NCBI GenBank assembly: GCA_006738865.1
Contig: AP019701.1
Coordinates: 487,001 to 551,000 of the forward strand
Length of the DNA stretch: 64,000 nucleotides
Direction: 5' to 3'
Source: Allostella sp. ATCC 35155
Lineage (GTDB): Bacteria > Pseudomonadota > Alphaproteobacteria > ATCC43930 > Allostellaceae
Position numbers and translations under genes: made by a program. Positions 34,938 to 38,211 of the stretch are shown here, piece by piece (positions within the stretch are counted from its first letter, which is position 1; each line of letters starts with the position of its first letter). Under the pieces are notes generated by a model. That model was not told the DNA's origin. It saw nothing but the letters and a program-made list of their open reading frames with translations, and did no database searches.

Positions 34938-36299
34938 TCAGCCGCGGCGCAGCACGAACAGGTCCTGGTGCCCCCACCAGTATCCCGGCTCGTACTGCAG
35001 GCACTCCGCCGCCGGCAGGGTTGCGATCTGGGCGTCGACGAATTCCCGGCTGGTGACGGTCTGGCCGTAGTCGCCGCCGTCGAGATCGTGCTGCTCGCTG
35101 CCGGGCGCGAACCAGAAGCCGTCCGCCTCGAGCGGCTTTTCCCCCATCTGCGCCATGCTGGCCAGACCGTGGGTGGTGAAGAGGAGCAGCCCGCCCGGTC
35201 GCAGGCCCCGGTACAGCCGTTGCAGCCAGCGCGTCCAGGTCGAGCGCGGCATGTGCGAGAAGAACGACAGCACGAAGATGACATCGAACGCCTGCGGCAG
35301 TTCCAGTTCCTCCGGGACGGTCGCGGACTGGATCGTCGGCACGGAGAAGGTCCGGGCGTTGAAGGCGTTGGCCGCCGGATGGATGTCGCAGGCGGCGAGC
35401 CGGTGCGGCGCGAGCGCGGCCCGGGCGTGCCGGGTCACCGCGCCGTAGCCCGACGCGAATTCGAGGATCTCGAGGGGCGGCGTGCCCGGCATCCAGCGGT
35501 CGACGATCGCGCGCACCTGCGCGGCGGACCGCGCCCCGTCGGTGAAATAGTAGCGGACGGCCTCCGCCTTCGAGGCGAAGCTCCGATGCTCCCAGATGAA
35601 GCGGAAGATGGCGTCGCCGGCATGCACGTCGGCGGACACGCCCACGGCCTGCGCGGCCGCCTCGCAGAGCTGCCGGACGGCCGGCGGCCCCGCGGCGGAT
35701 GGCACCGCGGGCGGGCTCGCCTTGCGGGTCGGAGAGGGCCAGCTGCGGGCAACGTAGACGTCCGTGAATTCCCCGACGATGCCGTGCGTGGGATCGTGAA
35801 AGCGCGTCACCTCCACGTCCAGGCCGGACCAGGCATGAATCCGTTCCGCCCGCCCGAGTGCCTCGTGGCCGACCGGCAGCGTGAACAGGATGGCACCGCC
35901 GGGCCGCAGCGTGCGCGCGGCCTCCGACAGGGCGCGGTCGGGCCGTTCGCACTGCTGCAGCACGTCGAGTGCCACGACGAGTTCGAAGGATTGGTCGGGG
36001 AAGGTCCGGGCCTCCGGATCCTCGGATCGGGCGGTGTAGGCGGCACATTCGCGCTGCAGCTTGCGCGACAGCGCGCCCCCGCCCGGCGCCAGCTCGTGAA
36101 GCCGCTGCCCGCGCCAGCCGGGGCGGCGGCGGGCGAGGATCATGGCCAGGGCCCGCTCATGCGGCAGCGACCCGCAGTCCCCACACCGCAGATGCGCGCG
36201 ATAGAAGTCATCGGAGGATCGGAACCGGGTCGGCCGCTCGCACACGGGGCAGAATCCCGGTCGGTCGTAGCCGCCGGCGAGGTGGTCGTTGTCGCTCAT
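34938..36299 (-). CDS. Zinc-ribbon protein with two methyltransferase-like domains
   Basis: 453 aa of unusual architecture. A treble Cys cluster (Cys17, Cys20, Cys39, Cys42) opens the protein. Residues about 65-185 form a Methyltransf_11-like domain with a degenerate SAM loop HELAPGGGALSRKL but intact DQSFELVVALDVLQQCERPDRAL and LRPGGAILFTLP. After a Pro/Ala linker, residues about 205-450 are a second class I domain with motif I ILEFASGYGAVTRHARAAL, acidic loop ACDIHPAAN and FDVIFVLSFFSHMPR. Its ATG overlaps the DUF763 stop in ATGA, so the two are translationally coupled. The substrate is unknown. Confidence 0.88.
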   Translation of the reverse strand: MSDNDHLAGGYDRPGFCPVCERPTRFRSSDDFYRAHLRCGDCGSLPHERALAMILARRRPGWRGQRLHELAPGGGALSRKLQRECAAYTARSEDPEARTFPDQSFELVVALDVLQQCERPDRALSEAARTLRPGGAILFTLPVGHEALGRAERIHAWSGLDVEVTRFHDPTHGIVGEFTDVYVARSWPSPTRKASPPAVPSAAGPPAVRQLCEAAAQAVGVSADVHAGDAIFRFIWEHRSFASKAEAVRYYFTDGARSAAQVRAIVDRWMPGTPPLEILEFASGYGAVTRHARAALAPHRLAACDIHPAANAFNARTFSVPTIQSATVPEELELPQAFDVIFVLSFFSHMPRSTWTRWLQRLYRGLRPGGLLLFTTHGLASMAQMGEKPLEADGFWFAPGSEQHDLDGGDYGQTVTSREFVDAQIATLPAAECLQYEPGYWWGHQDLFVLRRG

Positions 36300-37600
36300 C
36301 GTGCCGAGTCTCGCCGGTGGGTGACGGGCTGTCCAGCGCTGGTCGGCCGGGCTTCGGTCGTAGTGTTCTCCGCCGCCGGCCGCTCCCAGCCGAAGACGCT
36401 GCGCCCGCCGAGGTCGGCCGAGCGGCGGCGCTCGCCGGCCACGAACTCCGGCAGCGACGGCCCGGTGGCGTCGCGCTCGAGCCGCCGGGCCTCGCGGTCG
36501 AGGCGGCGGATCGCCGCCAGCTGCTCGTCGCGGCCCAGCTTCGCGCGGTCGACGGCGGTCTTCATGACCGCGATCGTCCGGTCCAGGACCAGGGTCGGCA
36601 CCGGATAGGGATGGCGGTCCTTGCCGCCATGGGCGAGCGAGAAGCGGGCGGGGTCGGCGAAGCGGCAGGGGGTGCCGTGGACCACCTCCGCCACCTGGGC
36701 CAGCGCCAGCACCGTCCGCGGCCCTACCCCCGGAACCAGCAGCAGCTCGGAGAAGTCGCGCGGGCCGCGATCGGCGGCAGCGGCCAGCGCCCCATGCAGC
36801 CGGCGCAGGACGACGTCCTCCGGCCGCACGTCGTGGCGGGCCGGCAGCACGAGGTGGGGCAGGGTCGGCGCCTCCGGCGGAGCCGGCGGCCGTCCGTGGA
36901 GCGTCGCCAGCTCGTGCACGATGCCGTTGGGGCCGGCTTCCGTCAGGAGGTCGAGTTGCGCTGCCCGCGCACCGGCCGCACGGCGGTCGGTCAGGTTGAC
37001 GATGGTGCCGCGATCCGGCCCGTCGATCGCCGCATGCGGCGCTTCGACGAAGCTGGCGAGCCCCTCGGACAGCCAGTGATAGCGCCGGGCGAGGCGCGCA
37101 TCGCCGTCCATGCCCTGCTGCACGACGACCCACAGGCCGTCGTCGGCGACGACGAAGCCGTGCAGGTAGAGGTCGAAGCCGTCCTGCACCGCCGCGCCGT
37201 CGACCTTGGCGACGAGGCGGCTGGTGCGGGCGAGCGCCGCGCCGTCGAGGCCCGTCCGCTCGCCCACGGCCGTAAGCTCGTCGGGCGTCCGCCGCGAGTG
37301 CCGGCCGCGCCCGCCGCAGACATGCAGACCAAGCTCGGCCGAGCGCGGCGCCAGCCCGCGCTTCAGCGCCCCCAGGACGCTGGTGGTGATGCCGGAGGAA
37401 TGCCAGTCCATGCCCATCACGGCGCCGAAGCACTGGAACCAGAAGGGATGGGCGAGCCGGCGCAGGAACTCCGCCCGGCCGTACTCCAGGATGATCGCCT
37501 CGGCGATCACCACGCCGAGCTTGGCCATGCGCTGGGCGAGCCACGGCGGCACGCGCCCGCCATGGAGCGGAAGATCGGCGCTGCCGGTCCGTCGGGTCAT
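36296..37600 (-). CDS. DUF763 protein with helix-hairpin-helix motif
   Basis: 434 aa, full-length DUF763. The conserved N-terminal core reads RTGSADLPLHGGRVPPWLAQRM and WFQCFGAVMGMDWHSSGITTSV. Residues about 284-310 (ELLLVPGVGPRTVLALAQVAEVVHG) form a helix-hairpin-helix like those in DNA-repair proteins, and a basic Arg/Lys-rich C-terminal helix follows. No biochemical function is established to my knowledge. The ATG at 37600 begins the conserved region. Directly upstream are a sigma70-type promoter and a LexA box, suggesting DNA-damage induction. It is coupled to the double methyltransferase gene. Confidence 0.9.
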   Translation of the reverse strand: MTRRTGSADLPLHGGRVPPWLAQRMAKLGVVIAEAIILEYGRAEFLRRLAHPFWFQCFGAVMGMDWHSSGITTSVLGALKRGLAPRSAELGLHVCGGRGRHSRRTPDELTAVGERTGLDGAALARTSRLVAKVDGAAVQDGFDLYLHGFVVADDGLWVVVQQGMDGDARLARRYHWLSEGLASFVEAPHAAIDGPDRGTIVNLTDRRAAGARAAQLDLLTEAGPNGIVHELATLHGRPPAPPEAPTLPHLVLPARHDVRPEDVVLRRLHGALAAAADRGPRDFSELLLVPGVGPRTVLALAQVAEVVHGTPCRFADPARFSLAHGGKDRHPYPVPTLVLDRTIAVMKTAVDRAKLGRDEQLAAIRRLDREARRLERDATGPSLPEFVAGERRRSADLGGRSVFGWERPAAENTTTEARPTSAGQPVTHRRDSAR

Positions 37601-37621
37601 CGGATCCCGCGATTGCCTAAA

Positions 37622-37636
37622 GAACAAACATGGAAC
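37622..37636 (-). promoter_or_regulatory. LexA (SOS) box, alphaproteobacterial type
   Basis: On the minus strand it reads GTTC-CATGTTT-GTTC, an exact match to the GTTC-N7-GTTC consensus of Alphaproteobacteria. It lies 22-36 bp upstream of the DUF763 ATG and overlaps the -10 hexamer, the expected position for repression. Confidence 0.72.
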
Positions 37637-37662
37637 ATACTGACGGCCGCGGCCGCTGTCAC
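37634..37662 (-). promoter_or_regulatory. Promoter of the DUF763-methyltransferase operon
   Basis: Minus strand -35 GTGACA (37657-37662), a 17-bp spacer and -10 TATGTT (37634-37639). Transcription would start near 37627, giving a leader of about 27 nt. The LexA box covers the -10 and start point. No strong ribosome-binding site precedes the ATG. Confidence 0.55.
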
Positions 37663-37696
37663 CCATCGATCATGTGTGCATAACTCAACCGATCAG

Positions 37697-37728
37697 TTGA
37701 CAGTTATTCCCACAGCAGACACTATACC
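37697..37728 (+). promoter_or_regulatory. Possible promoter for the VOC gene
   Basis: A perfect TTGACA (37697-37702) is followed by TATACC at 37723; the 20-bp spacing is longer than ideal. The region 37601-37800 is visibly more AT-rich than its surroundings and is otherwise non-coding. Confidence 0.35.
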
Positions 37729-37800
37729 TCCGAGTTGACTTCTCCGGGGCAGGGCGTCTTCCCGATGTGCCGCCCCGGCCGATCCGGGAAAGGTCCAGTC

Positions 37801-38211
37801 ATGAACGTGCAGCCCTATCTGATGTTCGACGGCCGCTGCGAAGAGGCGATCGCGTTCTACCGCACCGCGCTCGGCGCCGAGGTCCAGGAACTGATGCGCA
37901 ACCGGGAGAATCCGGAAGCGGGCATGGTCCGAGCCGGCACCGAGGACAAGATCATGCATGCGAGCCTGCGCTTCGGCGGGACGACGGTCATGATGTCGGA
38001 CGGGCACTGCGCCGGCCAGCCCAGCTTCCAGGGCTTCTCCCTCACCATCATGCCGCCCGACGATGCCGCCGGCGCTGCCGTATTCGCCGCCCTGGCCGAG
38101 GGCGGGAACGTATTGATGCCGATGTCGCCGACCTTCTTCGCGTCCAGCTTCGGCATGGTCGCCGACCGCTTCGGCGTGTCCTGGATGGTCTATGTGCAGC
38201 CGGCAGCGTAG
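37801..38211 (+). CDS. VOC family protein, PhnB-like
   Basis: 136 aa. MNVQPYLMFDGRCEEAIAFYRTALGAEVQELMR and MHASLRFGGTTVMMSDG with a C-terminal FADRFGVSW-like segment (ADRFGVSWMVYV) are the PhnB/3-demethylubiquinone-9 methyltransferase-like VOC pattern. Such proteins form metal-dependent or metal-free dimers; members annotated PhnB have no clear activity. It stands alone between the DUF763 operon and the convergent oxygenase. Confidence 0.9.
   Translation: MNVQPYLMFDGRCEEAIAFYRTALGAEVQELMRNRENPEAGMVRAGTEDKIMHASLRFGGTTVMMSDGHCAGQPSFQGFSLTIMPPDDAAGAAVFAALAEGGNVLMPMSPTFFASSFGMVADRFGVSWMVYVQPAA

Follow-up and report, generated by a model that had tools for sequence, protein, structure and literature searches.

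The gene for a DUF763 protein in Allostella sp. ATCC 35155 raises two linked questions: is this gene, which belongs to a family without assigned function, under the control of the SOS repressor LexA, and does its product act on damaged DNA? The locus was analysed in a stretch of 64,000 nucleotides (contig AP019701.1, positions 487,001 to 551,000), called the window below, and all the features described are located on its minus strand. The DUF763 gene (36296..37600, 434 amino acids) displays a full-length match with PF05559, the profile of this family of bacteria and archaea (model positions 1-319 of 319, 397.5 bits for a cut-off of 35.5, E 5.6e-119). It is preceded by a -35 hexamer GTGACA (37657..37662) and, after a spacer of 17 nucleotides, by a -10 hexamer TATGTT (37634..37639), which together form the only sigma-70-like match detected by a promoter scan of positions 37560-37820 (mean of 0.1 in shuffled sequences). 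The sequence GTTCCATGTTTGTTC (37622..37636), an exact GTTC-N7-GTTC motif of the form GTTC-CATGTTT-GTTC, starts inside the -10 hexamer, with which it has three bases in common. An earlier sequence-only reading of this DNA had described the same gene identity, the same promoter and the same overlapping LexA box, and all three are confirmed; the short spacing between box and start codon also holds, but 21 bp separate the box from the ATG (37600), not 22 bp as given there. The stop codon of the DUF763 gene (36296-36298) overlaps the ATG (36299) of the downstream gene (34938..36299), which matches methyltransferase domains in both halves. With this four-base overlap of the two genes, a two-gene operon is likely in this genome, and the earlier use of that word was reasonable.

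We propose that DUF763 belongs to the LexA/RecA SOS regulon of this genome and is most likely a DNA-binding repair enzyme, an explanation to which we give, as a whole, a probability of about 0.78. LexA control of the gene is, from the comparisons given below, very likely; the repair role of the protein is, a little less firmly, likely. LexA bound to the box would cover part of the -10 hexamer and repress the promoter. Upon DNA damage, LexA would be cleaved, and DUF763 would be made together with the product of the overlapping methyltransferase gene. DUF763 would then bind DNA through a putative helix-hairpin-helix (HhH) and catalyse the processing of damaged DNA or of DNA ends, sharing its pathways with AlkB (alkylation repair) and in certain hosts also with the end joining of Ku and LigD.

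GTTC-N7-GTTC is the LexA box of alphaproteobacteria. This identity was backed by a test on recA loci (57 of the 60 returned; L148-L150 were left out as partial or distant matches), where an exact site was found within up to 330 bp in 32 of 57, two of the misses having 42 and 240 bp of sequence. In the window genome, one exact box shortly precedes lexA (site at 2548123, match to the gene from 2548222), another is located upstream of recA (site at 2282988, match to the gene from 2283139) and the motif is also present by the divergent genes ssb and uvrA; we take GTTC-N7-GTTC as the LexA box type of this genome. The DUF763 gene shares with recA, lexA and uvrA the same operator, in the same genome and with overlap of a promoter. 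It differs from these members of the regulon in that it encodes a domain of unknown function, in that its box is patchy across orthologues and in that its control is predicted from sequence.

A single box in 64 kb is near what chance provides and by itself does not carry the claim of LexA control. Indeed, GTTCCATGTTTGTTC is the sole exact GTTC-N7-GTTC of the window for 0.62 expected from shuffles, and the genome contains 105 exact matches (21 for the motif read backwards), many of which are probably not operators. These numbers speak for a chance match, with DUF763 not regulated by LexA in this genome. We consider this very improbable, in view of the position of the box in the promoter, of its high matrix score and of its recurrence before other DUF763 genes. 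The scoring matrix was derived from the recA boxes found in other genomes (25 distinct ones) and applied to 100 listed sites of the 105 exact matches; the DUF763 site ranks 3rd among these 100, the recA site 8th and the lexA site 19th. In addition, the orthologue of another member of the genus (G387) has an exact box, GTTCGCATTTCGTTC, 18 bp before the DUF763 start, which is nearly the same place.

It is the recurrence of the box before orthologues, rather than the single site, that makes a chance match unlikely. The upstream scan that the sequence-only reading had suggested, with absence of the box from orthologues as the result that would count against it, was carried out on a pooled set of 152 loci, reduced to 144 after removal of eight copies and to 143 after removal of a later one (L229, a copy of L033). 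An exact box is located at most 150 bp upstream of the gene in 43 of the 143 distinct DUF763 loci, window included (44 of 144 before the last copy was removed). The same 144 loci gave 0, 1, 0 and 0 matches with control spacings of 5, 6, 8 and 9, and 0 to 5 matches with eight other, scrambled half-sites. The first set of orthologues, composed of the best 80 of 590 confirmed DUF763 relatives, already gave this picture: 17 of the 80 have an exact box within 300 bp (split 3 to 14 between the two orientations), for 0-1 with each respaced or scrambled control motif in one orientation. When the distance was restricted to 150 bp, 16 of the 80 were recovered, for 0.28 expected from the density of the flanks, and other gene starts have an exact box at this distance in only 7 of 813 cases. 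When one mismatch was allowed, 14 and 23 of the 80 loci were recovered in the two orientations, for 6-17 with the controls; such sites are not clearly above the controls and mean little. With the matrix, a score of at least 12 bits was observed in 24 of 97 loci (the 80 and 17 from the class and order samples, the window's own included), versus 0.56% of 2668 background windows. Finally, the phylum sample gave an exact box in 3 of 18 further loci.

Families f14 and f64 were followed up because one member had the box. Fourteen of their 15 new loci have it, 12-84 bp before the start, with 7 of 8 in f14 (a further match, L225, was dropped as the start of its protein is missing) and 7 of 7 in f64; two of those from f64 duplicate L033 and L066, which gives a distinct count of 12 of 13. 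The first f14 member groups with Sphingomonas loci in the tree, and f64 includes loci of Caulobacteraceae bacteria. In six of the seven f64 loci the box leads into TGCTAGAAC, which resembles a -10 element by eye. Family f174, assigned to the Rhizobiaceae by likeness to named loci, was represented by loci from 30 of 48 matching genomes (8 of these 30 had been read before) and has the box in 12 of 22 new loci, or 11 of 20 distinct ones once the copies of earlier loci L236 (with box) and L244 (without) are removed. Family f35 brought no new locus; the one-mismatch sequence GTTT-CCCTTTC-GTTC is found in its three members and the exact box in none of the three.

The label of presence or absence of the box changes 17 times in a 142-row FastTree phylogeny and 12 times in a quick IQ-TREE tree of 106 loci. 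These counts alone fit gain or loss. The position and the orientation of the box vary between lineages, which suggests repeated gain before DUF763; L243, for instance, has the same 15 bases as the window box in the opposite orientation, directly before the ATG. In L054, L056, L065, L086, L100 and similar Rhizobiaceae, the box was seen by eye to overlap the last codons of an upstream aminotransferase-like gene. The sequence before the box differs in L055, L058 and L067, where the box is kept; L055 and L058 (Sinorhizobium terangae) are two contigs of one genome with identical DUF763 proteins and boxes.

The boxes before DUF763 are widespread but patchy and not universal, and several large clades gave no exact box. 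In the genus of the window, the exact box is present in two of four members (the window genome and G387), one member (G385) has a one-mismatch site and one (G386) has no site. The 13 distinct DUF763 loci of Bradyrhizobium, the nine of Mesorhizobium and the R. leguminosarum-type and xanthomonad-type loci examined gave no exact match. The absence from Bradyrhizobium is telling, since recA does carry the box in the two Bradyrhizobium genomes and the one Tardiphaga sampled. It tells less in Mesorhizobium and in the R. leguminosarum type, since recA is also without a box in the one genome sampled of each. The Xanthomonas-type LexA motif is TTAG-N6-TACTA, and it was not found before the four xanthomonad-type loci, two of which are copies of one. 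LexA control as predicted is strongly supported by comparison in this and several other lineages, the box being present in 12 of 13 distinct new loci of two families, without being a feature of the whole DUF763 family.

The box might also serve mainly the downstream methyltransferase gene of the window, with DUF763 as a passenger of an operon whose two genes overlap by four bases. This is the least probable of the alternatives and we give it hardly any weight: the other DUF763 loci searched (a set of 124, copies included) contained no relative of the methyltransferase gene, whereas the box comes back before DUF763 with varying genes downstream. The methyltransferase-type gene matches the family mads_2 of PADLOC (E 1.9e-12), a collection that has no family for DUF763.

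If LexA control of DUF763 is accepted, the question becomes that of the activity of the protein. The HhH on which the sequence-only reading had based a DNA-processing role was placed there at residues ~284-310. A candidate motif is located nearby, at residues ~280-302 (36695..36763), and its matches with PF00633 (16.0 bits for a cut-off of 24, E 0.011) and PF14520 are both below threshold. Twenty of 49 DUF763 proteins match PF00633, in each case weakly. A resemblance to HhH-GPD glycosylases, noticed by eye, was not supported, none of the 49 proteins giving such a match. A sequence search of the PDB returned three matches (best E 0.5) and no convincing relative. The full-length AlphaFold model is too poor (pLDDT 54.5) and the N-terminal model is better (76.0); with Foldseek and VIA-align, the predicted models gave matches at background level and no convincing known fold, the best ones (Z 4.8, rmsd 4.2, 92 aligned residues; Z 4.2, rmsd 4.2, 93 aligned residues) being no better than background. 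An alignment of ten proteins, which extends from the window protein to a haloarchaeal one, reveals invariant residues such as D65, H67, D134, Q139, D140, Q161, K327 and D328; such conserved Asp, His, Gln and Lys residues would be expected of an enzyme. In this alignment, the DUF763 protein of a Haladaptatus plasmid is 41% identical. Two aberrant copies were observed: L031 (G060:C26:826-948) contains a piece of 40 residues (model positions 56-95) inside a different short open frame and is a gene remnant or a chimera, and in L075 (Mesorhizobium comanense) an in-frame stop interrupts DUF763 after codon 53.

The genes adjacent to DUF763 are better evidence for DNA processing than the weak HhH match. 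In 10 of the 80 loci, DUF763 has a gene for an AlkB-type 2OG-Fe(II) dioxygenase as its same-strand neighbour, within 63 bp in nine of them, and the six such genes that were scanned all match PF13532. The AlkB-type gene follows DUF763 in Sphingomonas (L034, L038) and precedes it in Bradyrhizobium/Tardiphaga and in the Mesorhizobium locus L069, at 722 bp. In the 993 kb covered by the 80 loci, all the AlkB matches obtained with tblastn are these neighbours of DUF763. The association had come to light through a downstream open reading frame, followed by tblastn: a clustering of the genes around the 80 named loci had listed none as kept beside DUF763 across the family, and the clusters it displayed did not include AlkB. 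Further AlkB-type genes were detected ~350-430 bp after DUF763 in L192 and L195 and within 1.5 kb in two of the 15 follow-up loci of f14 and f64 (L218, L223); the 1.5-kb flanks of the 22 f174 loci contain none. In the eight loci where AlkB precedes DUF763, no exact box was found upstream of the AlkB gene (best score 11.9). The window locus differs from these operons, as its DUF763 gene is not adjacent to AlkB and DUF763 is not itself an AlkB: tblastn with an AlkB query found no match in the window, where the downstream neighbour is the methyltransferase-type gene.

Components of bacterial non-homologous end joining are also encoded near DUF763 in a few loci. In G385, from the genus of the window, a Ku-LigD-Ku-DUF2934 cluster ends 1.3 kb before DUF763; Ku and LigD are 2-3 kb from DUF763 in L069, LigD is at least 3.3 kb away in L041, and in L233 the DUF763 stop is followed, 76 bp further on, by the start of a LigD-like frame. 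In total, Ku and/or LigD were found near DUF763 in 3 of 124 loci (copies included) and in 1 of the 22 f174 loci. In the window genome the two are unlinked, with Ku at 1.79 Mb and DUF763 at 0.52 Mb. Archaea also have DUF763, which need not act together with Ku there. Co-occurrence of Ku and DUF763 within the order was rejected as a link, being non-discriminating (Ku in 9 of 11 genomes with DUF763 and in 21 of 32 without). Most of the remaining neighbours of DUF763 vary; in L050 and L104, genes for UvrD-type helicases are located upstream on the opposite strand.

From this context we propose that DUF763 is a damage-induced DNA-processing enzyme, for which a nuclease, a glycosylase or another activity are indistinguishable; the DNA-processing role claimed earlier is thus still inferred, with genomic context (AlkB in 10 of 80 loci, Ku/LigD in four) as a better basis than the HhH. 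SOS control could also be real without DUF763 being a repair enzyme, if the protein acted on RNA or nucleotides, or were a damage-induced checkpoint or toxic factor that easily gains LexA control. The lack of a fold match and the weak HhH leave room for this alternative, as does an Eco57I/N6-methylase-like gene of the window genome (L006:1309-3126, minus strand), which is not a classical repair gene and has a promoter-proximal exact box 23 bp before its start (L006:3150-3164, genome 3737649); it is possibly a damage-induced restriction-modification gene. The repeated adjacency of AlkB-type genes and the proximity of Ku/LigD in four loci argue against it. Searches of viral contigs, of phage records and of PHROGs gave no relative; a phage or viral origin of DUF763 was rejected on this ground, and the same result speaks against the non-repair alternative. 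We regard a non-repair DUF763 as unlikely, though clearly less so than a chance box. A wider version of the repair reading, in which DUF763 would be an archaeal-bacterial family of DNA-repair enzymes with a fold unmatched in the PDB, would have come repeatedly under LexA in alphaproteobacteria and would handle alkylated or broken DNA together with AlkB, joined in certain hosts by Ku/LigD, is tentative, at rather less than even odds.

The recurrence of LexA boxes, together with the AlkB-type and Ku/LigD genes near it in other genomes, gives DUF763 a concrete and testable role in the repair of DNA damage; if true, the SOS regulon, and perhaps the repair systems of archaea, would gain a conserved enzyme. 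In the open-access literature, the one paper found to name DUF763 is a 2005 domain survey, which lists it among the domains common to plant-associated proteobacteria and archaea (PMC554113); searches for COG1415 and PF05559 added nothing of use. No report of LexA control of DUF763 was found in this literature, subscription papers and supplements being outside the search. The Caulobacter vibrioides genome that served as a control gave no DUF763, and we infer that this absence may be why the SOS work on Caulobacter missed it.

Two other observations were made on the exact boxes of the window genome. An identical 15-base box, GTTCCTGATATGTTC, is present at positions 3166121 (L004) and 4013742 (L007), with neighbours that have no clear link to DNA damage. 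The site that ranks first among those listed (L009:1045-1059, genome 4830044) has as neighbours genes encoding HhH and DUF4130 domains, which are perhaps another SOS-linked repair pair.
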